Part shown: positions 1,953 to 22,905 of the stretch, one piece after another
Layout: each line of letters opens with the position of its first letter
Numbering within the stretch: the first letter of the stretch is position 1
Assembly (NCBI GenBank): GCA_944376335.1
Contig: CALWCH010000012.1
Coordinates: forward strand, 1-50,231
Source of the DNA: an uncultured Clostridia bacterium
GTDB taxonomy: Bacteria; Bacillota; Clostridia; Christensenellales; Borkfalkiaceae
Length of the DNA stretch: 50,231 nt
Reading direction: 5' to 3'
The notes under the pieces: generated by a model
Seen by the model: only the letters and a program-made list of their open reading frames with translations
Database searches by the model: none
What the model was told of the DNA's origin: nothing
Program-made: the position numbers and the translations under genes

Positions 1953-1985
1953 ATTATACGACTTTGTACGTCCCGTTTTTGGGAC
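1953..1985 (-). promoter_or_regulatory. Palindrome promoter copy 1 (FtsH-like gene)
   Basis: On the minus strand, palindrome GTCCCAAAAACGGGAC (1970-1985) is followed by 11 bp and then a -10 TATAAT (1953-1958). No TTGACA-like -35 sits at 16-18 bp. Confidence 0.8.
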
Positions 1986-2042
1986 AAGAACGGCCTTTTT
2001 AAGAAAAATTAAAAACTTTTTTCGCCCGTTCGGGGGGCAAAA

Positions 2043-2064
2043 GGCGCACCGCATTTGGTGCGCC
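2043..2064 (-). terminator. Terminator after the DUF2779 gene
   Basis: Perfect 8-bp stem GGCGCACC/GGTGCGCC with a 6-nt loop, followed on the minus strand by TTTTGCC. It sits 8 bp past the DUF2779 stop codon. Confidence 0.75.
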
Positions 2065-2071
2065 CTGTCTT

Positions 2072-3565
2072 TCAGATACAAAATTCTTTGAGGCGCTGCC
2101 AGAGGAGCACCATTGCCATCGTGTCTAACTTGCAGTAGGCAAGAAGGCTTGCTCTCAGCTTTTCGCGCTCCCCCTTCTCCATGCCGCGAAGGGAGAGGAA
2201 CGCCGCCGTTGCCTCGGTGCCGTTGTGCACGTCCTCGAGGTTGTGATAGTCAAGCTCGGGGGAATTGGGAAAGAGTGCGGGAAGCACGCTCTTGATGGAG
2301 AGGCTCCCGCCCATCGCCCTGTCATAGACGAACCCGTCGCGGAACACGTCGAGAAGGTCGCGGATGTTGCCCTCGATCTTCAAAAGATGTTCCGCAAGGT
2401 CGGGGAAGGCCGCGGCGAGCTCTTTGAGGCGGGTACACTCGAACGCCTTGTTGTAGGCGAGCACGCAGGCATCCTGCGGGATGTCGGAAACGAGCTGTTC
2501 CGCAAGGGCGCGGCGGGGATCGCCGTCCTCGTCGGCGAGAAATTCGCTGTGACAAAGCTCCCCGTCCTTCTCCAAAAAGTAGTGGAGCGAGTACTGGAAG
2601 GGCACCTGCTGATAGGGACGGATGCCGTCGTAGAGCGGCACGCAGGTCTGGAAGGTCTCGAAGTCGAGAAAGTACAAGGGATAGGTGAGCGTCTCCAAGA
2701 ACGCGCGGATGCCGGGTTTGTCGATATGCGTCGGGAGGTCGAACGTCTCAAATTCCGCCTGCCGCCGCTGCATCGCGTTGAGCGGAATGCGGCACGTTAA
2801 GGCATCTTCCAAGGAGACGATGCCGCTTTGATAGTACTCCTCCGCCTTGCCCGCGCTCATGCGGTACAAGTCGAACACGTTGGGCTTGGGGAGCGTGCGG
2901 AAGCAGTAGTCGTGATAGACGCAGGGGTACGGGTCGGAACAATGCTTGCCCACGCACATGGGCGGCTCTTCCTTTTGGGTGAGATAGGAAAGCGCCTCGC
3001 GGGTGGTCTCCCCCACCTTGTTTTCGTAAGGCGCGAGGCGGTCGGTCACGTCCTCCACTTTAAAGAGTTCGTGGATATTCACCTCGCCGTTCCGCACATA
3101 GCGGTTGTTGATATAGGCGATAAACACGCGGCCGATGTTGAGCCCCGCCGAAGTCAACACCCATTTCTGATAGGAGCAGTCCGCAAGATACACGTCCTTG
3201 ATCTCCGTGCTCGACTTGACCTCGACGATGTCGTAGCCCTTTTCCATCTTATGGAGGATATCGACGGCGCAGTAGCAGTTGTTCTTGGAAAACGCCGCCT
3301 CACAGATGTTCTCAACGCCCTGAGAGAGGTACTTCCCGGTATTCTTGAGCATAGCGGCGATGTCCAGCCTGCCGTCCTCGGTATAGGCGGTCGTTTCGAC
3401 GTAGTCGCCCATCAGCCCCATCGCGAGATCGCCCACCTCATTGCCCTCCGCAAAGCGGCGCAGAAGTGCAGGGTCCTCTTTGGCAAGTTCCCGCTTGTAG
3501 GTGTCCAGCCAAAGCATCTTGGGGCATTGCAGATAGCGCGTAAATTTACTCTTCGAAAGATTCAT
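2072..3565 (-). CDS. DUF2779 protein: Cas4-like nuclease plus DEDD exonuclease-like domain
   Basis: This 497-residue protein has two nuclease-like halves. The N-terminal half begins LSKSKFTRYLQCPKMLWL, has the active-site-like string YDIVEVKSST and cysteines CVGKHCSDPYPC...YC, as in Cas4/PD-(D/E)XK enzymes with a 4-Cys iron-sulfur site. The C-terminal half has YFLDFET, AYNKAFECTRL and YCKLDTMAM, matching ExoI, II and III of DnaQ/DEDD 3'-5' exonucleases. The combination matches the DUF2779 family; its biochemistry is not established here. The gene starts 73 bp after the 168-residue upstream gene with no terminator between, so it may be read from the phosphatase promoter. A weak TATAAA (3596-3601) lacks a good -35. 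Confidence 0.75.
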   Translation of the reverse strand: MNLSKSKFTRYLQCPKMLWLDTYKRELAKEDPALLRRFAEGNEVGDLAMGLMGDYVETTAYTEDGRLDIAAMLKNTGKYLSQGVENICEAAFSKNNCYCAVDILHKMEKGYDIVEVKSSTEIKDVYLADCSYQKWVLTSAGLNIGRVFIAYINNRYVRNGEVNIHELFKVEDVTDRLAPYENKVGETTREALSYLTQKEEPPMCVGKHCSDPYPCVYHDYCFRTLPKPNVFDLYRMSAGKAEEYYQSGIVSLEDALTCRIPLNAMQRRQAEFETFDLPTHIDKPGIRAFLETLTYPLYFLDFETFQTCVPLYDGIRPYQQVPFQYSLHYFLEKDGELCHSEFLADEDGDPRRALAEQLVSDIPQDACVLAYNKAFECTRLKELAAAFPDLAEHLLKIEGNIRDLLDVFRDGFVYDRAMGGSLSIKSVLPALFPNSPELDYHNLEDVHNGTEATAAFLSLRGMEKGEREKLRASLLAYCKLDTMAMVLLWQRLKEFCI

Positions 3566-3638
3566 CTCATACCTCGCTTAAAACTCGTATTGATTTTTAT
3601 ACCACCCGAATGCCCGAAGCAATCACGATTTTACGGTT

Positions 3639-4145
3639 TTACGGCATTTTTTCGCTCGGAATGAGCGGAATGTAGACGGGCTTTGTGCGGAAATAGGACG
3701 AGCGCGGGAGTTCGACTTCGTAGACTGCCTCAAGCGCTGCCTCCGCCGCCGCTTGCGCCGCGTTCCCGGCTTCCCGGAGGACGTTCAGAGAGGCTGCCTC
3801 GCCCGTGTCCTCTTTGAGGACGACAAAGAACTGCCCGCCCTCGCCCGCAAGCCGCAGAGCGTCCCTCTCGCTTATCCGAAAGACGAGCAGGGAGTTCACA
3901 TCGAACGCCTCTCCGTCCTTCCCTTTCCAGACGGAACGCAGCCAAAGAGAGCCGTATCCGAGCGCCTTGACGCGCTTTTGCAGCGCGGAGACGGTCAAAA
4001 AAGTGCCGCTCGCGGGGTAACTTTTGACGGGAGTGAAGAGCGCCCAGCTTTCTTGAAACCGAGCGCCCTTCGCCCCCTGCAGCGACGCAAGCGCCTCTGC
4101 AAGCTGCATATTCATTGCTGATTGTAATAATGTCACTTCTTTCAT
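3639..4145 (-). CDS. Uncharacterised protein, weakly DUF3293-like
   Basis: A 168-residue protein with no signal peptide or membrane segment. The middle and C-terminal part (LLVFRISERDALRLAGEGGQ and following) resembles by eye the pattern of DUF3293 proteins, whose role is unknown; this is tentative. Its ATG overlaps the preceding stop as ATGA (4142-4145), so translation is coupled and the two proteins probably act together. It is third in the phosphatase operon. Confidence 0.6.
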   Translation of the reverse strand: MKEVTLLQSAMNMQLAEALASLQGAKGARFQESWALFTPVKSYPASGTFLTVSALQKRVKALGYGSLWLRSVWKGKDGEAFDVNSLLVFRISERDALRLAGEGGQFFVVLKEDTGEAASLNVLREAGNAAQAAAEAALEAVYEVELPRSSYFRTKPVYIPLIPSEKMP

Positions 4146-4735
4146 GCTTTCACCTCGTTAGAAGCCGTTTGGGAAGTATTTTCAGAGGGTCTCGCCTCCC
4201 TGCCGAGGACGTGGAAGAACCCTCTTATAATGTTGCCGACATGAATGCCGAGGTCGCCGAACCCGTCCTGCGCAATGACGCGGAAGATGTGGCCGTCGAA
4301 GCGGAGATCGATCTTAAAGACGCGCTCGTCCTGCCATTGCATTTCTTCGACGCCGACGACGGTGCCGCCCATCAGGACGGTCGGCGTTTCCACGAAGTCG
4401 GGATCGTTCGTCGGACTGAACGTGCCCGACGGAATGTACGATTCCGCCGCCATGTTTGACTTACTTTCACGATAATATTCCGCCTCGTCCTTAAAAAATT
4501 CGCCCTCTAAAAACAGGAAGCGGAGTTCGACATTGAGCTCTTCCTGCTTCTTGAGCCCGCGGAGCGGCTCGCCGACGACGGCATAGTTGATGGGCACATT
4601 GGGATTCAAGAGCCAAACCTTGTGCATCTTCCCCCACTTGACCCAGCGTTCGTGTTCACAGAGATAGGGCTGCGGCTCCCACCAAGTGAAAAACTCTTCT
4701 TCTTCGGGGAAAACATAAATAATTCCATCTTTCAT
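4142..4735 (-). CDS. Uncharacterised protein of the phosphatase operon
   Basis: A 197-residue protein I do not recognise. It begins MKDGIIYVFPEEEEFF and is acidic and aromatic-rich, with a beta-rich C-terminal part (TVVGVEEMQWQDERVFKIDL) that could be a small barrel. No catalytic motif, signal peptide or membrane helix is visible. I chose the ATG at 4735, behind an AGGAGG, over an upstream in-frame ATG (4789) that lies inside the phosphatase gene. It starts 2 bp after the phosphatase stop and overlaps the next gene by ATGA. Confidence 0.65.
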   Translation of the reverse strand: MKDGIIYVFPEEEEFFTWWEPQPYLCEHERWVKWGKMHKVWLLNPNVPINYAVVGEPLRGLKKQEELNVELRFLFLEGEFFKDEAEYYRESKSNMAAESYIPSGTFSPTNDPDFVETPTVLMGGTVVGVEEMQWQDERVFKIDLRFDGHIFRVIAQDGFGDLGIHVGNIIRGFFHVLGREARPSENTSQTASNEVKA

Positions 4736-4737
4736 TG

Positions 4738-5424
4738 TCAGTATTCCTCCTTGACATAAAATGTTTGGCAAGTTTCCATTTGTATGCACCCTAAAACGCC
4801 GCTATGAAAAACGCCCGTATCGAAATGCACTTTTGCATAGTCGCGAATGTCTCCGCTCCCCCGCTTGCTTTCGGAACGCGGATAGAGCAAAATTTCGTCC
4901 CTTCCCGTGAGATTGCGCACGGGCGTATGGCCGAAGAAGACGCACTTCCCCCCTTTCGGCAGGACGTCGGGATCCTTGAAGCGGCGGTCGTAGACGAGCT
5001 GCTCGCACGTCGCCTCGGCGGGGTCGGTGAGCTTTCCGTCCACAACGGGCATGCCCGCATGGACGCCGATGAAGTCCTCCGTCTCCGCATAGAAGGGTAA
5101 AAGGTCGAAGTTGTCCACCGTCTCCCAATCGAGAAGCTCGCCGTCCGTAAAGTAGGCACGGAGGGAGGTAAATACGCTGTCAAAGTCTCTCGTCGCCCGC
5201 ATGAGGCCGCGGCAAAACTTTAAAAAGTCATACTCATGATTGCCCATGATACATACGGCGTTGGGCATGGAAAAGAGCAGCTTTGCAAGGCGGATGCTGT
5301 CGGGGCCCTTCTCGACGATGTCGCCGAGCACATAGAGCGTATCCCCGCCCCCGAATTTGATCTTGTCCATGAGCCGCAAAAATAGCTCATAATATCCGTG
5401 AATATCCGAAATACAGTAGGTCAT
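4738..5424 (-). CDS. PPP-family serine/threonine phosphatase-like metallophosphoesterase
   Basis: A 228-residue cytosolic calcineurin-fold phosphoesterase. Its metal-binding motifs appear in order: DIHG near residue 7, GDIVEKGPDS near 34, GNHE near 61, VHAGMP near 125 and GHTPV near 168. This set is typical of bacterial PrpA/PphA-type protein phosphatases and ApaH-like diadenosine polyphosphate hydrolases; the sequence does not tell which substrate is used. It is first in an operon of at least three genes and lies about 27 bp downstream of palindrome promoter copy 2. Confidence 0.85.
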   Translation of the reverse strand: MTYCISDIHGYYELFLRLMDKIKFGGGDTLYVLGDIVEKGPDSIRLAKLLFSMPNAVCIMGNHEYDFLKFCRGLMRATRDFDSVFTSLRAYFTDGELLDWETVDNFDLLPFYAETEDFIGVHAGMPVVDGKLTDPAEATCEQLVYDRRFKDPDVLPKGGKCVFFGHTPVRNLTGRDEILLYPRSESKRGSGDIRDYAKVHFDTGVFHSGVLGCIQMETCQTFYVKEEY

Positions 5425-5450: not shown

Positions 5451-5483
5451 ATTATACGACATTCTGTGTACCAAATTTGGTAC
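5451..5483 (-). promoter_or_regulatory. Palindrome promoter copy 2 (phosphatase operon)
   Basis: A perfect palindrome GTACCAAATTTGGTAC (5468-5483) lies 11 bp upstream of TATAAT (5451-5456) on the minus strand. The position expected for the -35 holds CAAATT, the palindrome centre. Confidence 0.85.
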
Positions 5484-5576: not shown

Positions 5577-8177
5577 TCAAATGCCTAATCTGTTGCAAAG
5601 TTCGTTACAGACGTCCTCAATAGTGTCCTTAATAGTGTCTCCGATTTCCGTATTCACATCATCAAGAATATACTTTCCCTTATAGTAGGCTACTCTGTGT
5701 TCTTCCCCATTGGAAACTTTGATAGTAAAATACCTGTTCGGGAAACCATTTTCTATATAGTTATTTAATTGCGACAATTGGTACCCTACCGGTATTTTGT
5801 CTTTGATGAGGCATGCCAATGCAAAGGAATGGAGCTCAGCGCTGTTGATGCGTTTATTGGTAGTATTGTAAATTGCGATAGCTGTTGGGTCATCGGTCCA
5901 CGCACCGGGTTCAAGGCAGTTTGAGAAGGTAAAACCTCCAACTGTTTTCCCGAACAAATCATATTTAAGAAGGAGTTTCTTCCAGTCGGGGAGGTTGTTG
6001 TAATTGGACCCACTCTTAGCCCCACTTAGGTAATCGTTGAGCCAAGTTTCAATGTCGTTTTCATTTTGAGGATCAAAATCTGGAGCATCCACCATTGCTC
6101 TGAGCAGCGCGAGCGTAACATCGTAGCGCTTTCGATTATCGGTGTCTTCTCCGCTTGCAGCATAGCTGTGCGACAAATGCTTGGAAAAATCCGTGCCGAC
6201 AAACTTCTTAGTGTTGGTCGCTATCCCTGACATCGTCACCAAATGGTCAATTCCACTAAAAGCATTATCATACGCCCCGACAGCCAGCAGAGCCCGTTCA
6301 AAAAGAAGTGAAAGTGAGTCGCTTTGAAGCTTCTTTTCATTCTTAAAGATTTTTATGGCAATCGAAACGGCTTTTTTAAACCTATTTAAATAAGAATACC
6401 CGCTTGGGGTTTTTGCCAAGTCGAGAAGGAACCAGATCTCCCCATCGGAGTTGAAATAATTTTCGGCGTCAATTATAGCACCCTTCCACTGATTGGTGTG
6501 ATCATTCACAATAAATTTTGATTTCAGCAATTCCTCGTCAAAATGAAGACGTGCGGAGCTGCCCATTGTTACGTTTGCAGAGTTGCTAATTACATCAGAA
6601 ACGCTGTTTGAAGTATTAATTCCTTTGCAAATCTTGCGAAGACCGCGGAGGGTGTCCACCGCTTCGTCGAAGTTGCCGAAATCGGTATTTTTGACCAGCT
6701 TCCAAACAAAGCGGTTCCAGTCGTCGTAGTACGCTTTTATTCTGGCATCGTTTAAGTTGTCCTTAAACTTCTCCAAGAACGCATACAAGGCATTGCGCGC
6801 AACAAAATCACCGAGAGAAAGCGTTTTATTATCATTATCTAACGGGTCGACGGCAAGCCCGGTGCTCGTTTTTTGATCTCCTTTGAAAAGTTCATCAAAC
6901 AATGCATATCCAATCTTTCTATCAATATCTTTTTTAAAAATTGAATCATCGCTATTTTTAGAGAACAAATTACAAAGGTCAATGATCCGCTCGATCGAGT
7001 TGGTAAAGGCCTTTTGAATCTCGCTATAGAATTCATTTTTGGCTTTTTCATCACCTAAGTCAATATAGGGATTTTTTCTTTTCCCGTTTTCATCCACATA
7101 TCCATCGATCAGCAGCTTTCCGCTGTCTCTGATAAAGTTATAGAGCTCCTTTCCGCTCATTCCCTTGACGACATTGTTGTGTGCGCGATAAGTCTTCTGC
7201 GGAACGCCCTTTTCGCTTGCAGCGCAAAAGAAGTCGGCGCGGACGATCTCATTGATGAAGTTCATCATCGCCTGGTCGAACTTATCCGATTCTGTATCCC
7301 TGTTTCCGTTGACGTTGTCATTGATCAGATTAAAAAAGAAATTGGTATATTCGTTATTGAATTTGCCGATCAATTTGACGCGGTTCTCAGAGGAATCGGC
7401 TATCATTTCTTTTTCAAAAAAGCTCTTAAGCAAGTCAAAACCGTCCTGCACCGTCTTTTGAAGTTCCGCCTTGAAGATCTCGAAGTCGGTCAAGGCAAGT
7501 CCCCTCGCGTTCATCTTGATGTACAAATCGCGCACATTAAAGGTGGTGCTCGCTCCGCTCAAGTCATAGTAGTAGAACGTGATGGGGCAATCGCCCTTTA
7601 ATTTCTTAGCGAACTCGTTAAAGTCAGCATCCTTAAATTTGTTATGAATGCAGTCTATCACGACCAGCATTGACTTCACCGTGGGATCGTGTCCCATGGC
7701 GCCCGTGAACCACGAAATATTCCTGAGCTGTGCGGATATGTCCTCCTCATTACTATCGAACTTTAAATCCAACTTCCCGCAAATATTCTCACAGAAAGTG
7801 CGCGAGGTCGTCCTCGTCGCATAGGAAAATTTATTATGGAGAGTAGAAAGAGCACTTTCATCTCCCGCGCGCTGGAAGATGTGCCAATGCAGCAGATAGA
7901 GAATGGTGAGGCGCTGCTGGCCGTCGACGGGGTGGAACTTGTCGTTATTATTGTTCTCTTTATCATTATCATCTTCATTCCCGCCGAAGATAAAATCGAG
8001 TTCCAGCGGCGTATTTTTGTCCAATGCATCGTAGAGAGCATTCACAAGGCCCGTTCTGATACCTTCGGCGCTTCGGTTATTTCTTCCCTGTGCATACTCA
8101 CGCTGATACTTCGGGATCTCGATTTTTTTACCGTCGATCAGTTCCCAAAATGAGCCTTTTGTAGCTTGTCCGTTCAT
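5577..8177 (-). CDS. DUF262 (GmrSD-like) protein, second gene of a restriction-like pair
   Basis: An 866-residue protein whose first 130 residues are a DUF262 domain (FWELIDGKKIEIPKYQREYA, then VDGQQRLTILYLLHW near residue 85). DUF262 is the GmrS-type NTPase/DNA-sensing domain of type IV modified-DNA restriction enzymes and related defence proteins. The remainder is long and mostly helical, and I see no clear DUF1524 HNH motif, so the partner probably supplies the nuclease. Its ATG overlaps the upstream stop (8174-8177, ATGA). AT content and codon use look higher in A/T than the regulon genes around it, suggesting separate acquisition. A terminator follows. Confidence 0.8.
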   Translation of the reverse strand: MNGQATKGSFWELIDGKKIEIPKYQREYAQGRNNRSAEGIRTGLVNALYDALDKNTPLELDFIFGGNEDDNDKENNNNDKFHPVDGQQRLTILYLLHWHIFQRAGDESALSTLHNKFSYATRTTSRTFCENICGKLDLKFDSNEEDISAQLRNISWFTGAMGHDPTVKSMLVVIDCIHNKFKDADFNEFAKKLKGDCPITFYYYDLSGASTTFNVRDLYIKMNARGLALTDFEIFKAELQKTVQDGFDLLKSFFEKEMIADSSENRVKLIGKFNNEYTNFFFNLINDNVNGNRDTESDKFDQAMMNFINEIVRADFFCAASEKGVPQKTYRAHNNVVKGMSGKELYNFIRDSGKLLIDGYVDENGKRKNPYIDLGDEKAKNEFYSEIQKAFTNSIERIIDLCNLFSKNSDDSIFKKDIDRKIGYALFDELFKGDQKTSTGLAVDPLDNDNKTLSLGDFVARNALYAFLEKFKDNLNDARIKAYYDDWNRFVWKLVKNTDFGNFDEAVDTLRGLRKICKGINTSNSVSDVISNSANVTMGSSARLHFDEELLKSKFIVNDHTNQWKGAIIDAENYFNSDGEIWFLLDLAKTPSGYSYLNRFKKAVSIAIKIFKNEKKLQSDSLSLLFERALLAVGAYDNAFSGIDHLVTMSGIATNTKKFVGTDFSKHLSHSYAASGEDTDNRKRYDVTLALLRAMVDAPDFDPQNENDIETWLNDYLSGAKSGSNYNNLPDWKKLLLKYDLFGKTVGGFTFSNCLEPGAWTDDPTAIAIYNTTNKRINSAELHSFALACLIKDKIPVGYQLSQLNNYIENGFPNRYFTIKVSNGEEHRVAYYKGKYILDDVNTEIGDTIKDTIEDVCNELCNRLGI

Positions 8178-10288: not shown

Positions 10289-10334
10289 CGTACCCTCCTT
10301 ATTTTCAGGCGCAGTGACCGCCCTTACAATCACT

Positions 10335-11545: not shown

Positions 11546-12052
11546 TCAGTCGGTAAGGTCCTGAAAGATGCGGGCGAGGGCGGAAAAGGCCTCTTCGATT
11601 TTTTCCTGATGCCGATCGAAGACCTTCCGCTCGAAGTCATGCGTCTCCCAGCCCTCTTCCCAAAGAGCCGCTGCCTCGTCGAACTTGTCCGCAACTCCAT
11701 TGATCATTTGCATCCAATGCTCGAACTCTTCATTACCCGACTCTTCGGCCTCCTCTTCCTCGGTCAGCTCCCACATATTCTTGTGGTACTTCTCGAGATA
11801 GTACGCATTCCCGATCGAATACGAAATCTTCGTGTAGGCGCGCAGGTAATCGCGGATGATCGCCGTGAGATAGATCGTCGCCTCGGAGGCAATGTAGGGC
11901 GGTATTTTTTCGATATAGAGCTTACCGTCCCGCCACTTCTGCTTGCCGAGCGAGAGATGCCGCGCACGGAAGCGGTCTATCGGCCTACGCAACGAAAAGA
12001 AGAATCGGCGCAGCTTCCAATAGAGAGCGCTATGCGGCTTTCTCTTCCTCAT
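11546..12052 (-). CDS. Uncharacterised protein sharing the N-terminal domain of the large LRR protein
   Basis: A 168-residue, basic-then-acidic protein. The segment IYLTAIIRDYLRAYTKISYS matches IYLSAIIRDYLRLFLDRAP in the large LRR protein at 17697-19502, followed in both by an acidic stretch and a helical region with ADKFD. The two therefore appear to share a domain of about 130 residues, standing alone here. Similar helical domains occur in phage and mobile-element proteins, from memory. Its ATG overlaps the upstream stop (12049-12052). Function unknown. Confidence 0.65.
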   Translation of the reverse strand: MRKRKPHSALYWKLRRFFFSLRRPIDRFRARHLSLGKQKWRDGKLYIEKIPPYIASEATIYLTAIIRDYLRAYTKISYSIGNAYYLEKYHKNMWELTEEEEAEESGNEEFEHWMQMINGVADKFDEAAALWEEGWETHDFERKVFDRHQEKIEEAFSALARIFQDLTD

Positions 12053-12837
12053 AAAACCGCACCCTCGAACTTCTTGACAATGTCCTGCAGCTCTTCGGGA
12101 AGGACGGCGAGAGCGGAGAGGCGTTCTGCTTCGCTCATGCCGAAGTACGCCTCGGCAACGCTTCCCGCGATTGCTGCGATGGTGTCCGAATCGCCGCCGA
12201 TGAAGATGGCGTTGCGGATGGTATCTTCAAAGCTCTCGCCCTCGAAGAAACAGGTGAGCGCCTCGGGCACGGTGCCCTGACAGCTCTCGTTGAACTCGTA
12301 GGTCTTGGAGAGCTCCGCGCAGGAATAGCCGCCGAGTTCGGGATAGTACTCTTTCGCACGGGCGAAAATTTCCTCTTTCGAAGCACCATTTCTTGCGAGA
12401 TACACGCACATTGCAGTACATTCCGCGCCCTTGAGCCCTTCGGGGTGGTTATGCGAGACGCCCGTCACGATGCGGGAAAGGCGCCCCACGTCCTCTTCGT
12501 CTTTCGCGAACCACCCGACGGGAGAGATGCGCATGGCGGCGCCGTTCCCCCAGCTGTTGTAGGGCTTGGGGTCGTCGAAGAAGAGCCACGCGGAAAAGGC
12601 AAGCCCCCAGCCTCTTTGCGGGTACTTTCGTCCGAGCGTCTGCATGGAATGGATCGTTTCGCGGCGCAAAGCCTCGTCGTCTCCGCCCGCCTTTATGAGC
12701 GCATTTGCAACGGCGATGGTCAGAAGAGAATCGTCGGTAAAGAAGCAGTCCTTATGAAAGAGCTCAAACTCTTTGCTGCGGCAGTTATAAAACTCAAAGC
12801 GGCTGCCGACAATGTCGCCGAAAATGGCACCCAACAC
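12049..12837 (-). CDS. ADP-ribosylglycohydrolase (DraG/ARH family)
   Basis: A 262-residue enzyme predicted to remove ADP-ribose from proteins or nucleic acids using two metal ions. Visible motifs are GAIFGDIVGSRFEF at the N-terminus, FTDDSLLTIAVANAL, GNGAAMRISPVGW in the middle, SHNHPEG, and IGGDSDTIAAIAGSVAEA near the C-terminus with the metal-binding Asp residues. I chose a GTG start at 12837: the GDIVGS motif normally lies within the first 15 residues, AAGGAGG is 9 bp upstream, and longer in-frame starts overlap the previous gene. The previous gene stops 1 bp before this start. In a regulon with SLOG and other conflict-type proteins, it could reverse ADP-ribosylation during stress. Confidence 0.85.
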   Translation of the reverse strand: MLGAIFGDIVGSRFEFYNCRSKEFELFHKDCFFTDDSLLTIAVANALIKAGGDDEALRRETIHSMQTLGRKYPQRGWGLAFSAWLFFDDPKPYNSWGNGAAMRISPVGWFAKDEEDVGRLSRIVTGVSHNHPEGLKGAECTAMCVYLARNGASKEEIFARAKEYYPELGGYSCAELSKTYEFNESCQGTVPEALTCFFEGESFEDTIRNAIFIGGDSDTIAAIAGSVAEAYFGMSEAERLSALAVLPEELQDIVKKFEGAVL

Positions 12838-12838
12838 C

Positions 12839-14323
12839 TTATTTGTCCTCCTTTTTGGGCGGGTAGAGCAGATTTCCCTGTGCATCTCTTCGATATTCGC
12901 GGGGATAGCGGAAGTATTCAAATTCATCGCCGCCCGTCCATGCGCGGATGTATTCAAAGACTTCGGGCGTGATGCGGATGTCCGTGGGGCACCCCAAGAT
13001 CCGCATGGTCTCGTGCTTCCAGCCATACACCGCCATGTATTCCCTCCCGTCGATTTTGACGATCATATCATACCAAAGGGAAGGATGCAGCGGGCACTGA
13101 TGTTGCTTTTTGAAGGAGACGAACTCGATGTCGCAGACGTCGTACACTTCTTTTTTGGGTAAAAAGCGCAGTTTTCTGTCTTGCCGTTCGAGCACCTTCA
13201 AGTCCTCTTCCGTCGCTTCGCCGCGAAGATACTTCACCACCCGCACGATGTAATCATCGTTTGTGAGGAGAAGAAGTTCCTCCTCTTCCTTTTTTTGCTT
13301 CTCCCGATCCAGCCCGAGGGAATGTAGTTGATCGACAAAAATGTAGAAGTCAAACGAGCGGAGATATTCTTCAACGGAGCCTTTTCTCCAAAGGACGGTG
13401 CCGTCCGCGTGCACCTCGATGAAGGTATAGGAGTTCTTTCTATCGCGGCGGATATAGCACACTTCGCCGTCCCTCTCGACGCGCATGAACTTTTCACCAC
13501 GCTGCGCCGCTTCATAGTCTCTGTCAAATTCCTCTTTCGCGCTTTGAAAGCGCTCGAGCTGTTCGGGCGTGAGCGGGTAGCGCTTATAGTCATTCACCGT
13601 GACGATGTTCCCGTTTAGTGTGACGCGATTTTTATCACCCTTGCGCGTTTTGAGGCAAAAGACGGCCTCCCCATTTCGGTACCCCCAAAAGGTGACGGCG
13701 TTCTTTTTGTTGCAGATCTGGATGCGCGTGCCGATGCCCCGCGTGTTTTCCTGCGTTTCTTCCATGATGCCCTCCCGCAATTGCCTGTCTTTATGATACA
13801 ACTTCGTATGTACCATATTTGGGGCATCGGAGCCTGCTCCCGAAATCAAGATGTTTTTTCGGCGCAGCTGTTTTGCGTAGGCGATGGTGCGCGCCGTGCC
13901 GCCATAGGGCTGCCCTTCGACGGCGATGACGAGCGAGGAACGCTCCACCATCTCACTGTCTCGCGCCGCATAGGCTTCGAGTGAAAACGAGGGCGCGATC
14001 ACGTTCACAAGGTCGCACTGCTCCAAGATGCGGGCGTACTGTTCGCGCGTCTCTTTGTTCCAACGGGCGGGCTGCTCGGGGAAGGGCACGGCGGCCTCCA
14101 AAGAGATACTCTCCCCCTCCGCTTTGAGGCGCAGGACGATCTCGGCGGCTAAAAGGTCGATGCCCGCCGCCATGCCGCAGATAAAGTGCCTGTATCCGAT
14201 TCGGACAGCCTCTCTCACAGCCGCTTCGAGCTTTTGAGTGACGAGCATAAGGCGGCTTTCATCGTTCCCCCACGGGTAATTCTTGGGTCGCGGCCCCGTA
14301 AAACAACAGGTGAGTAATTGCAT
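12839..14323 (-). CDS. SLOG (DUF1273-like) protein reading into an unknown protein across an internal promoter
   Basis: One uninterrupted frame of 494 codons covers two apparent proteins. Residues 1-175 form an SLOG/DUF1273 (YpsA-like) Rossmann domain that likely binds a nucleotide ligand: CCFTGPRPKNYPWG, FICGMAAGIDLLAAE, and SLVIAVEGQPYGGTARTIAYA. It then reads through SDAPNMVHTKLYHK, which is palindrome promoter copy 3 translated. At codon 187 a better-placed ATG (13765, behind GGGAGGG) begins a 308-residue unrecognised protein with a strongly charged middle. No stop separates them. I read this as a SLOG gene whose stop was lost, or a real fusion that also makes the short form. The SLOG ATG is 6 bp after the upstream stop and lacks a Shine-Dalgarno site, so it is probably coupled. 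Confidence 0.7.
   Translation of the reverse strand: MQLLTCCFTGPRPKNYPWGNDESRLMLVTQKLEAAVREAVRIGYRHFICGMAAGIDLLAAEIVLRLKAEGESISLEAAVPFPEQPARWNKETREQYARILEQCDLVNVIAPSFSLEAYAARDSEMVERSSLVIAVEGQPYGGTARTIAYAKQLRRKNILISGAGSDAPNMVHTKLYHKDRQLREGIMEETQENTRGIGTRIQICNKKNAVTFWGYRNGEAVFCLKTRKGDKNRVTLNGNIVTVNDYKRYPLTPEQLERFQSAKEEFDRDYEAAQRGEKFMRVERDGEVCYIRRDRKNSYTFIEVHADGTVLWRKGSVEEYLRSFDFYIFVDQLHSLGLDREKQKKEEEELLLLTNDDYIVRVVKYLRGEATEEDLKVLERQDRKLRFLPKKEVYDVCDIEFVSFKKQHQCPLHPSLWYDMIVKIDGREYMAVYGWKHETMRILGCPTDIRITPEVFEYIRAWTGGDEFEYFRYPREYRRDAQGNLLYPPKKEDK
13793..13825 (-). promoter_or_regulatory. Palindrome promoter copy 3 (inside the SLOG frame)
   Basis: An imperfect palindrome, plus-strand GTACCATATTTGGGGC (13810-13825), lies 11 bp upstream of TATCAT (13793-13798) on the minus strand. 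A start at about 13786 would leave a 21-nt leader before the ATG at 13765 and the ADP-ribosylglycohydrolase operon. Confidence 0.7.
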
Positions 14324-14329
14324 GACTTT

Positions 14330-14899
14330 TCAGAATTGAATGATGCCGTCCGAGCAGACGACCTTCTTGACAGAGGAGTGCCTTCTCCATGCGGAGATGC
14401 CCGAAAAGCGCTGATGAAAGAGCGCCATGGACTCTTGAAAGACGATTTCCGTCAGTTTGGGGCAGGTGCCGAATACCTCGTCCCCCATCACCTTGACGGA
14501 ACCGGGCAGGCAGACGGACTTGAGCTCCAGACACCCCTCAAAGACGCGGGAGCCGATGGTATGCAGCCGATGGCTCTTGATGTCCACTTCTTCGAGGGGC
14601 TCATTCATGGCAAATGCCTCGTCCCCGATGCTGTCGATGTTCTCGGGAATGGTGAAGCGATTTTCGCTGTAGAGCCCGTGATAGAGATAGTAATCCGGAA
14701 TGTGCCGCATATAGTGAAGCGGGTCCTCGTCGATCTGCAGCATGATGGACGTAAGGAGGCCCCTCGACGGGCGGTCGTCGATCTGCTCATAGACGAGCTC
14801 GAACTCGGCGGTGTTGAGGTGCTCCGAAAAGACGGGGTCATCAAAGAGCTTTGCAAGCGTATCGTGGTAGATAGTTTTCCATTCATCAAACGTCTTCAT
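14330..14899 (-). CDS. Small BspA-like leucine-rich repeat protein
   Basis: A 189-residue protein. The N-terminal 80 residues are helical with no recognised domain (MKTFDEWKTIYHDTLAKLF). The rest is BspA/LRR_5-type repeats such as FTIPENIDSIGDEAFAMNE, LHTIGSRVFEGCLELKSVC and KVMGDEVFGTCPKLTEIVF. There is no signal peptide, so unlike secreted BspA proteins it should be cytosolic, perhaps a recognition or scaffold part. It is second in the unit driven by palindrome promoter copy 4, between the Cys-rich and SLOG genes. Confidence 0.75.
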   Translation of the reverse strand: MKTFDEWKTIYHDTLAKLFDDPVFSEHLNTAEFELVYEQIDDRPSRGLLTSIMLQIDEDPLHYMRHIPDYYLYHGLYSENRFTIPENIDSIGDEAFAMNEPLEEVDIKSHRLHTIGSRVFEGCLELKSVCLPGSVKVMGDEVFGTCPKLTEIVFQESMALFHQRFSGISAWRRHSSVKKVVCSDGIIQF

Positions 14900-15829: not shown

Positions 15830-15862
15830 ATTATACAATTTTGTATGTCCTAAATTTGGGAC
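15830..15862 (-). promoter_or_regulatory. Palindrome promoter copy 4 (Cys-rich/LRR/SLOG operon)
   Basis: Plus-strand GTCCTAAATTTGGGAC (15847-15862, one mismatch from perfect) lies 11 bp upstream of TATAAT (15830-15835) on the minus strand. The RecF-like gene stops 10 bp before the palindrome. Confidence 0.85.
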
Positions 15863-15872: not shown

Positions 15873-16736
15873 TCAAAGCAGATAAATTTTGATTTGTTCG
15901 GAGCCTCGGATGCGCTCCGCAATTTTTTTATCGCGCGAGAACACGAACACCTGCCTTCCGAGCGCAGCCGCTTTCTTTAAGAGGGGCGCAAGGTCGATGC
16001 ACTCGTCGATGACGTCTGCAAGGGAGAGAACAAAGAGCGGGTGTGCGTCCGTCCTTCCCATTGCAAGGTGCACATCATTCCAAAAGCGGTTGACTTCTAA
16101 AAAGCTGAGGTATTCCAAGAGGGTGCGCTCGGTCGTACTCAAATCTCTGCGCGGCTGCGCGTCTCTTGCCGTAAAGTTGCCCCTCGCGTCCAGCGTGAGA
16201 TACAGCCGCTTTTGAAGGCGCACGGGCTGCGGCTCGAAACTCCTGATATGTTCCCGTAAGAGGCGGCGGAAGGTGCTTGAAAACCCCGCGCCGTCCGTGC
16301 GTTCGCTGAAAATTTCCCGTTCCTCTCGGATGCCCTTGATGTACCGCGCAAACGTTTCGGAAAACGGGAACTCTGTCTCCCTCATGAAATACGAGCAGGC
16401 CTCCTCCTCGATGCTCTCCGAAAAGAGCGCGGCGCGCCCCTGCGGCAGTTCCCGCGTTCCCCGCCGCACGGAAAGAAGATAGTGCTCGGGCGCCTCGTCT
16501 GAATACCGCGCCTCTATCGCATAGTCTTCCTCATCGCGGACGGCGTCGGCTGCAAGACGGCTCTCCCGCGCAAGGCGCACCTGCGGCTGAATGCAGCGGC
16601 TCCCCGTGAGAAGATTGAGCGCGGCGAGCATATCCTCCCGCCCCTCCCCCGCAAAGACGGTGACGGGCGAGTCGAGCGCAAACCTTTGACAGCCGATGCG
16701 CCCGAAGTGCTCCAACGTGAGTTTTGTAAGCGTCAT
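15873..16736 (-). CDS. Degenerate RecF/SMC-like ATPase
   Basis: A 287-residue protein that begins like RecF and AAA_23 ATPases (LTKLTLEHFGRIGCQRFALD) and reaches the P-loop position with VTVFAGEGREDMLAALNLL, where the GxxGxGK[ST] lysine is missing. Near the C-terminus LSTTERTLLEYLSFLEV and PLFVLSLADVIDECIDLAP sit where the signature and Walker B regions would be, but without a clean DE pair. It is therefore probably unable to hydrolyse ATP normally. Its ATG overlaps the stop of the DnaE-like gene (16733-16736), so the two are made together. I am fairly confident of the fold relation and unsure of the function. Confidence 0.6.
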   Translation of the reverse strand: MTLTKLTLEHFGRIGCQRFALDSPVTVFAGEGREDMLAALNLLTGSRCIQPQVRLARESRLAADAVRDEEDYAIEARYSDEAPEHYLLSVRRGTRELPQGRAALFSESIEEEACSYFMRETEFPFSETFARYIKGIREEREIFSERTDGAGFSSTFRRLLREHIRSFEPQPVRLQKRLYLTLDARGNFTARDAQPRRDLSTTERTLLEYLSFLEVNRFWNDVHLAMGRTDAHPLFVLSLADVIDECIDLAPLLKKAAALGRQVFVFSRDKKIAERIRGSEQIKIYLL

Positions 16737-17635
16737 GATGTGCCCCCTTCCGAGACGGACTGCATCATGAGGTACTGCGCCAATGCCAGATAGGACGCGC
16801 GGCAGATGGTGTAGAGCCCCTCGCGCCGCACGAGGTCGAAGATGTCGTCGAAGTCATCTTCGTCTAACCCTTCCGCTTTTGCCCGCTCGTGCAGCCGAAG
16901 GCGGTAGAATGTGATCGGCCCTTCGTCCTTTTTTAAAAACGCCCGACGGATGCGCTCGCCCTCCTCGGAAGAAAACCCCACCTCGCACAGGAGGCCGACG
17001 GCCTCTTCCTGAAATTCGAGGGGCGGCTCCCCCTCCATAAATTCCTTGAATCGGAGCGCGACGAGCGTGTCGCTCAGCTGCGCGACGGAGTGAAGATGTT
17101 CTATCCCGAGTTGCTTGGCCGTTTTTAAGAGCAGCTCTTCGTCCTCGAAGGGCCTTTTGCGGAAGAATTCGGCGGCCTTTTGCGGGTCGATGAAGGGTAT
17201 CTCGCGCTCCAAAAGTTCGACGGCGGCGCGCTCTTCTTCTGTGCGCTGCGCGGCGGCTTCTTTGAGCTTGTCCGCAGGCACGAACAGCGGCAGCGGCGGG
17301 ATACGCTCCCCGGGGAGCAGGAGACGCTCGGGATAGCTGCCCGTCTCGAAGGGATCGACCTCGGTGATGCCGAGTGCGTAACATAGGAGCGAGCAGTTGT
17401 GCGCGCTCAGAACGTACGGGAATACCACCCGTTTGACGGCAGAGATGGCGCGCTCCCATAAGAGAAACAGCCCCTCCGCCTGCATTTTTCGGACAAGTTG
17501 GAGCTCGTAGAAAAGCCGCTCCTTCCGCTCCCCTTCGAGCGCTCCGAACCGCCGCTCTGCCCCTTCGAGCGCCCTTTGTCGGAGCAGTTCTTCCTCTCCC
17601 GCCTGCGGGGCGGGCTCATACAAATTTTCTTTCAT
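16733..17635 (-). CDS. Truncated, catalytically dead DNA polymerase III alpha-like protein
   Basis: A 300-residue protein that follows part of the C-family polymerase (DnaE) core. LSAHNCSLLCYALGITEVDP aligns with the conserved GSAAGSLVAYxLGITxxDP region, followed by FETGSYPERLLLPGERI like LLFERFLNPER. LEFQEEAVGLLCEVGFSSEE and RIRRAFLKKDEG align with YQEQVMxIxxxxAGFSLGEADxxRRAMxKK. FDDIFDLVRREGLYTICRAS resembles the KSHAAAY segment. The PDxDxD catalytic aspartates are absent (PLPLFVPAD instead) and there is no PHP domain, so it cannot be a polymerase. It may have kept a binding or structural role. The start at 17635 is behind AAAGGAGG. Confidence 0.65.
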   Translation of the reverse strand: MKENLYEPAPQAGEEELLRQRALEGAERRFGALEGERKERLFYELQLVRKMQAEGLFLLWERAISAVKRVVFPYVLSAHNCSLLCYALGITEVDPFETGSYPERLLLPGERIPPLPLFVPADKLKEAAAQRTEEERAAVELLEREIPFIDPQKAAEFFRKRPFEDEELLLKTAKQLGIEHLHSVAQLSDTLVALRFKEFMEGEPPLEFQEEAVGLLCEVGFSSEEGERIRRAFLKKDEGPITFYRLRLHERAKAEGLDEDDFDDIFDLVRREGLYTICRASYLALAQYLMMQSVSEGGTS

Positions 17636-17653: not shown

Positions 17654-17686
17654 AGCATAGCAAATACGGCGTACCAAAAACAGGTC
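17654..17686 (-). promoter_or_regulatory. Palindrome promoter copy 5 (DnaE-like/RecF-like operon)
   Basis: The weakest copy: plus-strand GTACCAAAAACAGGTC (17671-17686) lies 11 bp upstream of TATGCT (17654-17659) on the minus strand. The large LRR gene stops 10 bp before it. Confidence 0.65.
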
Positions 17687-19528: not shown

Positions 19529-19561
19529 ATTATACGAAAGGCGGCGTACCGAATTCGGTAC
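19529..19561 (-). promoter_or_regulatory. Palindrome promoter copy 6 (large LRR gene)
   Basis: A perfect palindrome GTACCGAATTCGGTAC (19546-19561), extended by GGC/GCC to 22 bp, lies 11 bp upstream of TATAAT (19529-19534) on the minus strand. Confidence 0.85.
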
Positions 19562-19582: not shown

Positions 19583-20557
19583 TTACTTGTATTTTCCCAA
19601 GCCGCGCTGTAAATTTTCGCGGATGCGGGTACGGAGCGAGGCGGGAGAAAGCACCTCCACATGATTCAAGTACTGCATCGCCCAATACTCCATCGCAAGC
19701 GGGCTCGCCTTGACGGTCACATGAAGCTTATCCCCCTGTCGGGCAATGCGCGCGTTGTCGCCGAACCAGTCGACGATCTGATCGACGACGGTCTCGTCCG
19801 CCAAAAAGTCGACGACTTCCGGCTTATCCGCATACATATAGGGCAGCGAGGTGGCGTAGTCATGATAGTCGATGCCGAACTCGTGGCCGGGGAGCGACTT
19901 GAGCGGCGTTGCAGGCTCGTCCAAGAGGCGGATCTCGGTGATGCGGTCGAGGCGGTAGTGCCCGAGGTTTTTGTGCTTTTCGTTGCACGACACGAGGTAG
20001 TACCGCTGATTGTGCAGAATGAGCTGATAGGGCGAAACGCGCTGTTCGCTCGTCTTGTGCAGCTTCTTGTCCGCGCCGTACTTGTTGTAGTGGAAGGCGA
20101 TCTGCTTCCCCTCTTCAATGGCGGTATCGATGACCTCGATGCTGTAAAAGAGCGCACTGTTGTCCGTCTTGCTCCAGTCGTTGACGGAACAGATGTGCTT
20201 GACGTGCGAGAGGAAGTACTTGTTGGAGAGGCCGCACAGCTTTTGGATGAGGTCCTTGGAGTGCCTGGCGGTGATGTACCTGCTCGAAAGGACGCCGTCG
20301 ATGAGAAGGCGCAGCTCGGAGTCTTCGAAGGGGCGCTCCGCAAGATAGCTGCCGCGGCGGTCGGACTCGATGTCATAGCCCGCCTCTTTGAGAATGGAGA
20401 GGTTGCGCCCGACGAGCTTTCTCTCGACCATGAGGCCGTAGTCCTTGTCGAGGTAATTCACGATCTCTTCCTGCGTCAGCGGGTGGTCGTAATCGGTGTA
20501 CTCCTCCAAAATTTGCAGAATGCGCAGAGGCGCCAACTTTTTCGGTTCAATGCTCAT
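19583..20557 (-). CDS. WYL-domain HTH transcriptional regulator
   Basis: A 324-residue regulator with a winged HTH at the N-terminus (LRILQILEEYTDYDHPLTQE, then RNLSILKEAGYDIE) and a WYL domain from about 140 to 215 (KQIAFHYNKYGADKKLHKT, RVSPYQLILHNQRYYLVSCN, HYRLDRITEIRLLDE), followed by a WCX-like C-terminal part. WYL proteins such as PafBC, DriD, BrxR and CapW control DNA-damage or phage-defence genes through nucleic-acid or nucleotide ligands. It has an ordinary promoter and no palindrome, while eight units around it carry the palindrome, so it is the best candidate regulator; that link is inferred. Confidence 0.85.
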   Translation of the reverse strand: MSIEPKKLAPLRILQILEEYTDYDHPLTQEEIVNYLDKDYGLMVERKLVGRNLSILKEAGYDIESDRRGSYLAERPFEDSELRLLIDGVLSSRYITARHSKDLIQKLCGLSNKYFLSHVKHICSVNDWSKTDNSALFYSIEVIDTAIEEGKQIAFHYNKYGADKKLHKTSEQRVSPYQLILHNQRYYLVSCNEKHKNLGHYRLDRITEIRLLDEPATPLKSLPGHEFGIDYHDYATSLPYMYADKPEVVDFLADETVVDQIVDWFGDNARIARQGDKLHVTVKASPLAMEYWAMQYLNHVEVLSPASLRTRIRENLQRGLGKYK

Positions 20558-20643: not shown

Positions 20644-21048
20644 TTACTGCTCGGCGGCTTGCAGATAGCGGTAATGCTCGGAGCCGTCCGCAAGGATCTT
20701 CAGAACGCGGTTCTTAAGGCAAAATTGCTCCTTAAGATAGCCGATAACGTCCTCCGTTGCAAGGTCGGGGGTGAGGAAAATCGTCGCGTTTTTCGTATCT
20801 TTGATCTCTACCCTGCCGCGCGGATAGAAATTGTACGGCTTCCCGCGGCGAAGTTCCGGAGTAAGGTACTCCTCCCACGTCTTCTTGTGGTTGTAGTTGT
20901 CGCCGTGCTTGGAATTGAGCGGCGGAATGGGCGTCAAATAGGTTGGCACTCCCGCCAAATCAACGGGAATACGAAAGAGATACGGCTCATTCGCGCTCAG
21001 GTCTTCCCGATCGACGATCCAGAAGATCCCCTTCTTTTCCCCTTCCAT
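20644..21048 (-). CDS. Small uncharacterised protein with an NHK...W...YPRGRVE signature
   Basis: A 134-residue protein beginning KKGIFWIVDREDL, with NYNHKKTWEEYL and KPYNFYPRGRVEIKD in the middle and DGSEHYRYL near the end. From memory this resembles a small uncharacterised family found in many bacteria; I know no function. No signal peptide or membrane helix. The start has GTGAGGTG upstream and the gene is alone under palindrome promoter copy 7. Confidence 0.7.
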   Translation of the reverse strand: MEGEKKGIFWIVDREDLSANEPYLFRIPVDLAGVPTYLTPIPPLNSKHGDNYNHKKTWEEYLTPELRRGKPYNFYPRGRVEIKDTKNATIFLTPDLATEDVIGYLKEQFCLKNRVLKILADGSEHYRYLQAAEQ

Positions 21049-21076
21049 ACTTCACCTCACGCAATAGTTTTTCTCG

Positions 21077-21109
21077 ATCATACCACAGCGGGTGTCCCAA
21101 ATTCGGGAC
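21077..21109 (-). promoter_or_regulatory. Palindrome promoter copy 7 (134-residue protein)
   Basis: Plus-strand GTCCCAAATTCGGGAC (21094-21109) lies 11 bp upstream of TATGAT (21077-21082) on the minus strand. This copy also has a TG one base before the -10, as in extended -10 promoters. Confidence 0.85.
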
Positions 21110-21129
21110 GCCTGCGACGCAATCGGAGC

Positions 21130-21420: not shown

Positions 21421-21441
21421 GTTGAGTAAAATCTTCTCCTC

Positions 21442-22350
21442 TTATTGCAGCTTGCCATCTTTCGCTGCCGAATCCCGTTCTCCCTTGCAGGCATAGTGAA
21501 GCGTTTCGAGGGCCTCGTTGGCAGCCGTGCGGTCGATGATGGCCTTCACAAGGAGATCAAGCTCCGTATTTTCCCGATAGTCGGCAGGTGCAAAGTATCT
21601 GATCCTCCCGTCGCGCATCATCTTATAGACCTTTGACTTGTCCTTCGTCTCCGCATTGTAGACGCCGATGGAGTGCCCGCCGTACGAAGTCACCAGCTTC
21701 ATACAGGGGATGTCGGTATCGCTGTCCCCGATGTAGACCATGTTGCGGAAGGGAACGCGCATCGCCTCGGGCGAAAAACTGTCGTTGACGGCGGGGTCGT
21801 TGATGTCCAGCACCCCCTTCTCGATGCGGAAAAGGTACTGCGTCTTGTTGGTATAGTTGACGACCTGCGCCGGCCAGACGGCGACCCCGCGTTCGTTGTA
21901 GTAGAAGGAACTCGCGTAGATCTTCTCGAACGCGCCCGCCTTCGCGACGGACGTGCCCTCGATCATCTCTTTGAGACCGGACGAGATGATGTAGTGCTCC
22001 ACGATGACGCCCTTCTCCTTCCCATATGCGCGGATGCGCTCAAACCACTCCTCCACGCCCGGAAAGAGCTTGACGTTCGAACCGTAGGCGGCGAGGGTAT
22101 CCCGATTGAAGATGAGCTTGCCCTCCGACTCCTGCATCATGACGAACATATAGGCAAGGTTGTCGTCCATCTCGTTTGCGGAGGCGAGCGCGTTGGTCTT
22201 TTCCCAGAACGCGGGAACATCGTAGCCGACCGACTGGATATACCCCTGCGCCTGCATATCGTCCGGCGTCAGCGTCTTGTCGAAGTCGTAACAGATTGCA
22301 ACGACGGGCCGCTCTTCCTTGTGTTTGCGTTCATATTGCTTTTCGGGCAT
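21442..22350 (-). CDS. HAD-family phosphatase
   Basis: A 302-residue HAD hydrolase. Motif I is CYDFDKTLTPDD near residue 25, motif II the IISSGLKEMIEG segment, and motif IV YIGDSDTDIPCMKLV near 225; all catalytic aspartates are present. A helical cap lies between motifs I and II. No signal peptide. I chose the ATG at 22350 because GGGGGAAA lies before it; the in-frame ATG at 22368 has no ribosome site. It precedes the cREC-like gene under its own promoter without a palindrome. Substrate unknown. Confidence 0.8.
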   Translation of the reverse strand: MPEKQYERKHKEERPVVAICYDFDKTLTPDDMQAQGYIQSVGYDVPAFWEKTNALASANEMDDNLAYMFVMMQESEGKLIFNRDTLAAYGSNVKLFPGVEEWFERIRAYGKEKGVIVEHYIISSGLKEMIEGTSVAKAGAFEKIYASSFYYNERGVAVWPAQVVNYTNKTQYLFRIEKGVLDINDPAVNDSFSPEAMRVPFRNMVYIGDSDTDIPCMKLVTSYGGHSIGVYNAETKDKSKVYKMMRDGRIRYFAPADYRENTELDLLVKAIIDRTAANEALETLHYACKGERDSAAKDGKLQ

Positions 22351-22380
22351 AACATTTCCCCCATTCATCTTGATAGGTTC

Positions 22381-22409
22381 ATTTTAACAATTTTGAAATG
22401 CAAAGTCAA
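22381..22409 (-). promoter_or_regulatory. Sigma-A promoter of the HAD-cREC pair
   Basis: Minus strand TTGACT (22404-22409), 17-bp spacer, TAAAAT (22381-22386). No palindrome. The -10 and its TTG lead match those of the WYL gene promoter. Confidence 0.8.
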
Positions 22410-22428
22410 CGACCAAATCAAAGTTCAT

Positions 22429-22827
22429 TCATCCCATGCAGAGGGTCTCACCCGCAAGAAACATCGGTTTGATCATTCCCTCGCGGATAAGAGCGAGCTG
22501 CAGTCTTCCCGCCTCGTCATAGCCGATACAAAAGCGCTGCTGCAGAAATTCGATGGAAAAGTCCATTGCTTGACGCCCTGCCCGAAAGGCCTCTTTCATC
22601 AATTCCTCGGTGATCTCGAACGGTGGCTCTTCCGGCGGCGCGGGGCGGAGGTCCTCAATGTGATGGAGAGCATGATCGGAAAGCCCCCTCAGCTTCTGCG
22701 CGAACGCTTCCAATTCGTCGGAGAAGCCTTCCTTCTCCGTGTCATGACTCATCTCCTTGAACTCTTGCGCCAATTCCTCCAACCGCTCTGAGCAGAAGTG
22801 ATACAATGTTACGTACGTTTCCGTCAT
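22429..22827 (-). CDS. Stand-alone FtsK-gamma-like DNA-binding protein
   Basis: A 132-residue protein. The N-terminal 65 residues are helical and acidic. The C-terminal 55 residues match the FtsK gamma winged helix: EAFRAGRQAMDFSIEFLQQR, FCIGYDEAGRLQLALIREG, compared with ASISLLQRRFRIGYNRAARL in FtsK. In FtsK/SpoIIIE this domain reads oriented chromosomal octamers and activates XerCD; here the motor is missing, so it is probably a DNA-binding regulator or targeting subunit. It is alone under palindrome promoter copy 8 and could itself act on the regulon. Confidence 0.7.
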   Translation of the reverse strand: MTETYVTLYHFCSERLEELAQEFKEMSHDTEKEGFSDELEAFAQKLRGLSDHALHHIEDLRPAPPEEPPFEITEELMKEAFRAGRQAMDFSIEFLQQRFCIGYDEAGRLQLALIREGMIKPMFLAGETLCMG

Positions 22828-22872
22828 CCTGTCGAACTCCTTTTTTAATGATTATATCATATCACAACACAA

Positions 22873-22905
22873 ATCGTAGCACAAACAGCGTCCCAAATTC
22901 GGGAC
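22873..22905 (-). promoter_or_regulatory. Palindrome promoter copy 8 (FtsK-gamma-like gene)
   Basis: Plus-strand GTCCCAAATTCGGGAC (22890-22905) lies 11 bp upstream of TACGAT (22873-22878) on the minus strand. It is the last copy and marks the right edge of the regulon. Confidence 0.8.

Follow-up and report, generated by a model that had tools for sequence, protein, structure and literature searches.

A WYL-family protein as the probable activator of eight palindromic promoters in a Clostridia gene island

At one end of contig CALWCH010000012.1 from an uncultured Clostridia bacterium, within the stretch of 50,231 b (56% G+C) analysed here and referred to as the window, lies an island of approximately 20 genes, all on the minus strand, between 0.65 and 22.8 kb. 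The genes are arranged in eight units, one per palindrome of a set of eight, with unit borders drawn from gene order; their products include a protease, nucleases, a number of proteins without domain assignment, and a transcription factor of the WYL family that is very probably the regulator of the eight promoters (Table 1). The left end of the island lies outside the data, because the window starts at the contig end.

Table 1. Putative operator palindromes and genes of the island (aa, amino acids)
Feature	Position	Strand	Remarks
Palindrome 1	1970..1985	minus	-10 TATAAT 1953-1958; precedes soluble FtsH-like AAA-M41 protease
Palindrome 2, perfect	5468..5483	minus	-10 TATAAT 5451-5456; precedes metallophosphatase unit
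Palindrome 3	13810..13825	minus	-10 TATCAT 13793-13798; between SLOG part and next gene
Palindrome 4	15847..15862	minus	-10 TATAAT 15830-15835
Palindrome 5, degenerate GACCTGTTTTTGGTAC	17671..17686	minus	-10 TATGCT 17654-17659; weakest score, 18.6
Palindrome 6	19546..19561	minus	-10 TATAAT 19529-19534; precedes LRR_5 protein
Palindrome 7	21094..21109	minus	-10 TATGAT 21077-21082; precedes 134-aa protein, then WYL protein
Palindrome 8	22890..22905	minus	-10 TACGAT 22873-22878; precedes FtsK_gamma-like protein and HAD hydrolase
FtsH-like AAA + M41 protease	647..1927	minus	HEAGH, Walker A; no stretch of transmembrane-helix hydrophobicity
DUF2779 / Cas4-like nuclease	2072..3565	minus	domain matches
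Two small genes after phosphoesterase	4142-4789, 3639-4145	minus	no Pfam match
Calcineurin-like phosphoesterase	4738..5424	minus	Pfam
Two GmrSD-type (type IV restriction-like) genes	5577-8177, 8174-10333	minus	domain matches
Two genes	10430-11524, 11546-12052	minus	no Pfam match
ADP-ribosylglycohydrolase	12049..13026	minus	Pfam
Unknown gene, start behind promoter 3	12839..13765	minus	open frame runs upstream into SLOG part
YpsA-type SLOG domain	13770..14323	minus	upstream part of open frame 12839-14323; end not fixed
Small LRR_5 gene	14330-14899	minus	
Unknown gene	14936-15823	minus	
RecF-like gene (earlier label)	15873-16736	minus	no Pfam match
Gene with DNA_pol3_alpha match	16733-17635	minus	
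LRR_5 (BspA-type) protein, 601 aa	17697..19502	minus	
WYL-WCX transcription factor, 324 aa	19583..20557	minus	proposed regulator; unit of palindrome at 21094
134-aa protein	20644..21048	minus	first gene of WYL unit; relatives behind same motif in two other loci
HAD hydrolase	21442-22368	minus	
FtsK_gamma-like small protein	22429-22827	minus	below Pfam cut-off

All eight palindromes are 16 bp long and lie on the minus strand, and the distance from palindrome to -10 hexamer is exactly 11 bp in 8/8 cases, the hexamer, of the housekeeping type, being TATAAT at four sites and TATCAT, TATGCT, TATGAT or TACGAT at the others. The palindrome spans -39 to -24, no -35 element is present at any of the eight window promoters, and start codons follow 6-45 bp past the -10. 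A search with the consensus GTNCCAAATTTGGNAC, allowing up to 3 mismatches, returned 8 matches in the window as against 1.83 +/- 1.26 in shuffled sequences; seven of these are sites of the set and one is an unrelated place (25978), the copy at 17671 being missed. A weight matrix of 33 positions was derived from 115 unique sites in relatives, to which neither the window nor its 100% copy (L009) contributed, although the seeds of the first motif model had contained the eight window sites. Applied to both strands of the window, the matrix ranked exactly these eight sites first (scores from 39.2 to 18.6), followed by the opposite strand of site 1970 (9.3) and, as the best unrelated place, by a score of 4.8, while the highest score in 30 shuffled windows was 13.7. 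Between 23.4 and 50.2 kb of the window the motif was not found. The original prediction, made from the letters of this DNA, of eight palindromes held at 11 bp from a -10 with no -35 is thus confirmed, both in its coordinates and by a model trained on relatives that places the same eight first. It is of note that the TACGAT at site 22890 is followed downstream by a second -10-like stretch (TATGATATAAT, 22851-22861), and that this promoter may have another start.

A search of public genomes with the WYL protein alone as query yielded 63 WYL loci, labelled mostly as Clostridia or other Bacillota, with many animal gut samples and one Elusimicrobiaceae; L009 is the window's own copy, and motif counts refer to the window plus the 62 other loci (63 sequences). 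In L009-L071, 30 of 90 loosely defined palindromes (4 from L009) carry a TAnnnT at 11 bp, as against 0-7 at any other distance between 0 and 33 bp, and 29 of the 30 lie on the strand of the WYL gene. When both a palindrome score and a strong -10 were required, the hexamer lay at 11 bp for 87 of the 261 palindrome sides, at 10 bp for 2 and at 12 bp for 1, each distance other than 11 bp accounting for 0-9. An iterated search identified 145 sites in 58/63 sequences, of which 124 have a TAnnnT, in 54 sequences; their consensus, ATGTMCC-RAATTY-GGKACAT (20 bp in extended form), is followed by a spacer with T at -15 and then by TATAAT. In the 62 loci 121 of 137 sites lie on the strand of the WYL gene, and start codons are mostly found 15-60 bp downstream. 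Judged from these sequences, the surroundings of WYL orthologues have kept the palindrome-11 bp-TAnnnT arrangement throughout Clostridia, which upholds the original prediction of one regulator acting at a fixed geometry. An additional feature is that 6 of 126 palindromes having a -10 show one at 11 bp on both sides, where one dimer could serve two divergent genes.

The genes that stand first behind the sites are diverse, including WYL itself (21 loci), FtsH-like genes (17), a 670-aa AAA protein (7), a 180-aa family (7), an SNF2-type helicase (7), a DnaB-like protein (5), LRR_5 proteins (4) and others, among them one that looks by eye, with no search, like a DNA ligase and one that looks PolC-like. 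The cargo is variable, and besides WYL the elements that recur most are the FtsH-like and DUF2779 genes, each in 16/63 sequences.

The WYL protein encoded at 19583-20557 had not been named in the original prediction. Binding of this protein to the palindrome is well supported by comparison among relatives, because sites precede the WYL gene, motif and gene are linked, a residue of the DNA-binding domain tracks the operator, and the site is positioned as in known WYL activators. In 21 cases a site stands no more than 150 bp upstream of the WYL gene, and 14 of these have the full TAnnnT (counted from the site list); the full motif is also found at the start of the WYL gene in relatives of 41-43% identity (L081-L084 and L145). 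At residue 29 of the helix-turn-helix (HTH), Q accompanies an outer G:C operator pair (37:3 loci) and H or Y an A:T pair (11:1), in a count from which site-less loci were dropped, for which L066 has no readable residue, and from which L009 was omitted as the window's copy; L043 and L049, which carry Q inside the H clade of the tree, have kept G:C sites. In the structural model a winged HTH (wHTH) at approximately 6-72 is followed by helices (79-149), a WYL domain (151-215) and a WCX domain (247-323), and Pfam reports both WYL and WCX. A Foldseek search with this model places DriD (2.9e-15) and PafBC (2e-13) nearest, with BrxR (5e-9) and also CapW far lower. The scan of island proteins turned up one WYL gene, in an island whose left end is cut by the contig. 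Some genomes carry two WYL relatives each (with identities to the window's protein of 75% and 41% in G004 and of 61% and 58% in G080; also G001 and G162), and their regulons may be parallel.

The FtsH-like gene offers a view of the motif that is independent of both motif and regulator, since the protein was searched in 200 genomes at E 1e-60 with neither WYL nor the motif being used. Fourteen FtsH-like genes were found, 8 of which, including that of the genome studied here, have the motif at their start, and 7 of these 8 genomes also have WYL. Over the 200 genomes, WYL and the FtsH-like gene occur together in 8, the FtsH-like gene alone in 6 and WYL alone in 21 (p 1.3e-4). Within the FtsH-like loci, the motif is present in 7 and absent in 4 where WYL is present, and present in 1 and absent in 1 where WYL is absent, the locus of G223 being truncated; here the motif is not clearly dependent on WYL.

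Outside the island the picture is different as regards coupling. In the assembly of the same genome (1.75 Mb, 86.4% complete), searches with GTCCCAAATTTGGGAC and GTACCAAATTTGGTAC at up to 3 mismatches recovered three off-island palindromes (L005, L006 and L111), all three lacking a -10 at 11 bp; L006 scores 15.7 on the palindrome alone. A genome-wide regulon was thus not seen, and the regulon is, on what these searches covered, restricted to the island. The proposed scan for palindrome, 11 bp and -10 is therefore positive in relatives, where the coupling is conserved, and negative genome-wide; lack of genome-wide enrichment, which had been put forward as a refutation, would mislead in that role, given a motif that does not extend beyond the island. 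In related genomes the palindrome with at most 1 mismatch is present in 16/61, versus 2/61 for a reversed control, and those palindromes outside WYL islands that were fetched have no -10 at 11 bp, except for two sites on fragment L096 of G017, one of them before an FtsH-like gene, and a weak site on L104. Single ATCCCRAATTYGGTAC palindromes, on either strand and with no -10 at 11 bp, are common to several congeneric genomes (G018:C9:54118, G011:C22:8432, G022:C124:3608, G034:C14:42888 and G008:C8:5358), which would be another use of a similar sequence.

That the arrangement is a viral feature was also considered and rejected. Perfect palindromes in unrelated IMG/VR contigs show TAnnnT at 11 bp in 4/221 and 1/68 sides, with no excess: over the 289 sides there are 5 cases at 11 bp, while other distances reach 20 (1 bp) and 13 (17 bp). 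A search with a WYL profile found a single IMG/VR locus, L150, a contig of 14 kb with a 56% WYL relative at 8001-8972, phage-like genes recognized by eye, and the motif just downstream. A separate 40-kb viral contig, IMGVR_UViG_3300046536_000145 (L183, L187, L193, L224), holds six exact copies of GTACCRAATTYGGTAC with no coupled -10, perhaps the phage's own operator set.

Several details of the island's gene content deserve mention. The SLOG frame (12839-14323) has no stop before the palindrome at 13810 and remains open across operator and -10 until it joins the following gene. L011 encodes the two parts separately, and the operator at 13810 can thus be taken to mark a real gene boundary. The read-through itself represents an imprecise gene end or else a recent fusion. 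When ten island proteins were compared one by one with PADLOC, GmrSD-like, Cas4, AAA and WYL models were matched at the level of domains and the SLOG frame weakly matched ShosA; a whole defence system cannot be called from models of single proteins. For two labels given previously, a Pfam scan returned no match (the 'RecF-like' protein) and a score under the cut-off (the 'FtsK-gamma-like' one). From 26 kb onwards lie a glycoside-hydrolase (GH) cluster and then housekeeping genes. The cluster (26091-41556), which is a rhamnose-rich glycan-use locus, comprises GH39, two GH43, GH1, two alpha-L-rhamnosidases, GH3 and GH2 and adjoins a divergent AraC regulator; a chloramphenicol-acetyltransferase-family protein is encoded at 42886-43578.

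The geometry of the eight promoters is itself already known from the WYL activators DriD, SiwR and PafBC. DriD of Caulobacter crescentus is described as a homodimeric WYL activator triggered by single-stranded DNA (ssDNA), whose sites are centred on a poor -35 at a constant distance from the -10 and whose DNA-binding domains flank sigma 4 on either side; in that account its regulon consists of a few DNA-damage genes, with no self-regulation (PMC12340889). The island protein shares with DriD the order of wHTH, helical bundle, WYL and WCX over approximately 325 aa, a pseudo-palindrome of approximately 20 bp (ATACGAC-N7-GTCGTAT for DriD, ATGTMCC-N6-GGKACAT for the island), and an operator placed over a poor -35 at a fixed distance from the -10. 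The two differ in that DriD is proteobacterial and is described with few genes and no autoregulation, whereas here a contiguous Clostridia island is involved and a site stands on the WYL operon. SiwR of Mycobacterium smegmatis, also a homodimeric activator, uses a 19-bp palindrome between -10 and -35 with GGA at -26 (PMC10693628, PMC4012209), which recalls the GGKAC half-site at -28 to -24 of the island, but its reported target is one two-gene operon (DinB superfamily) in Actinobacteria. PafBC of mycobacteria replaces the -35 contact (sigma adaptation), employs a -26 motif, and requires conserved RxxR arginines of the WYL domain for ssDNA (PMC11804915); likeness to the island extends to the -26 motif, to the -35 replacement as proposed here and, at one invariant position of a putative RxxR, to the WYL arginines, but PafBC is a heterodimer of the WYL proteins PafB and PafC, whereas the scanned island proteins include one WYL gene. 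BrxR is a WYL repressor with an inverted-repeat operator downstream of the predicted -10 (PMC9122601), and CapW is likewise described as a defence-linked WYL repressor; these belong to a WYL dimer family tied to defence systems, and BrxR shares the inverted repeat, but both are repressors with a much weaker fold match, and the BrxR operator lies downstream of the -10 in contrast to the island site at -39 to -24. No description of the palindrome motif or of the island was found in the best-ranked papers of the open-access full-text literature.

Taken together, these observations suggest that the eight promoters probably constitute one regulon of a WYL activator that replaces the -35 contact and switches on the island. 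Where the original prediction had left activation and blocking side by side, action as an activator is likely, being favoured by the operator position, the parallels with DriD, SiwR and PafBC, and the Foldseek ranking. A WYL dimer would bind the palindrome, occupying the region normally read by sigma domain 4, and would anchor RNA polymerase through protein contacts, as DriD does, with positive control of its own operon and of the whole island. With less certainty, the WYL domain would sense a nucleic-acid signal, most likely ssDNA from damage or from an invading element, and this signal would switch on together a stress- or defence-like cargo of protease, nucleases, GmrSD, SLOG, ADP-ribosylglycohydrolase, LRR and replication-protein-like genes. 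The ssDNA signal and the defence role are inferred; in the WYL-domain RxxR, matched to PafBC by pattern and not by alignment, R202 is conserved in 50/50 proteins, and the second position, R205, varies (32 R, 13 H and 5 K of 50).

This last variation is one of a number of points that weigh against the reading as set out, and most of the others bear on two alternatives. The more serious is that WYL binds but represses, extended -10s firing until the -35 region is occupied by the protein, and a ligand lifting the block, as for BrxR and CapW. A -35 with 4/6 matches is found at 0/124 sites, as against 28% for the 1018 TATAAT that these loci contain elsewhere, although this lack is partly built in because the operator occupies those positions. 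TG is present at -15/-14 in 41/124 sites and T at -15 in 91/124, and such extended -10s could fire alone; half of the window -10s (4/8) are perfect TATAAT, and the defence-linked WYL regulators BrxR and CapW are themselves described as repressors. Yet a repressor need not hold one distance, while 11 bp is kept almost without exception, the site lies upstream of the -10 and not downstream as in BrxR, and the fold is closer to DriD and PafBC than to BrxR, in a model whose pTM is 0.46, whose domain packing is unsure and whose TM-scores are low (0.38). Repression is, on balance, unlikely.

The other alternative, that a different, non-WYL regulator binds the palindrome and WYL is merely one of its targets, draws in part on two genomes. 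G164 has the motif before its FtsH-like gene with no WYL detected, and G054, with no WYL match, has on L104, off any WYL island, a weak full motif (TACCAT, score 15.9). Apart from this alternative, further points weigh against the main reading: G038, G094, G137 and G173 have WYL and an FtsH-like gene but no motif at the latter, 5/63 sequences remain without any site after the iterated search, no site qualifying for the residue-29 count is present in 9/62 relatives (L014, L019, L023, L024, L030, L037, L058, L061 and L067), some of them on short contigs, and longest-frame starts leave just 13/57 WYL genes with a site close upstream. The tracking by residue 29 does not represent many independent events, because its state changes only twice on the tree (quick method), and L053 combines H with a G:C site. 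The island also encodes another possible winged-helix protein, the FtsK_gamma-like one, but clustering finds that small family in only 4/63 sequences. Since off-island palindromes with a coupled -10 were, among those fetched, only those of L096 and the weak one of L104, and the site precedes WYL itself in 21 cases and in its more distant relatives too, a non-WYL regulator appears improbable.

That the palindromes are recombination or cassette-boundary sites and not operators would suit a cargo that differs among islands while the site stays, and the gene boundary at 13810, but the fixed coupling to a -10 and the short distance to start codons make this very improbable. Chance is a negligible explanation: palindromes alone are expected approximately 1.8 times in the window and also occur in viral contigs, but the eight sites head both strands by a wide gap and their coupling to a -10 is kept in relatives.

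It is a tentative proposal, and one that may well prove wrong, that a WYL activator triggered by ssDNA acts as master switch for a modular, immune-like island in gut Clostridia. On that proposal, cargo genes would join the island by carrying operator and -10, and capture behind this signature would suffice to bring any gene into the response. Control of defence islands would then include activation in addition to the repression known from WYL proteins, and cargo of unknown function would be revealed by the 33-bp signature. In the sources consulted, the few WYL activators described have small groups of damage or stress genes under their control, and the WYL proteins linked to defence are repressors. 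The signature allows further members to be found by sequence alone and makes the membership of a gene testable, and a large Clostridia family in which one activator governs entire variable islands would connect the sensing of damage or invasion with many uncharacterised genes.

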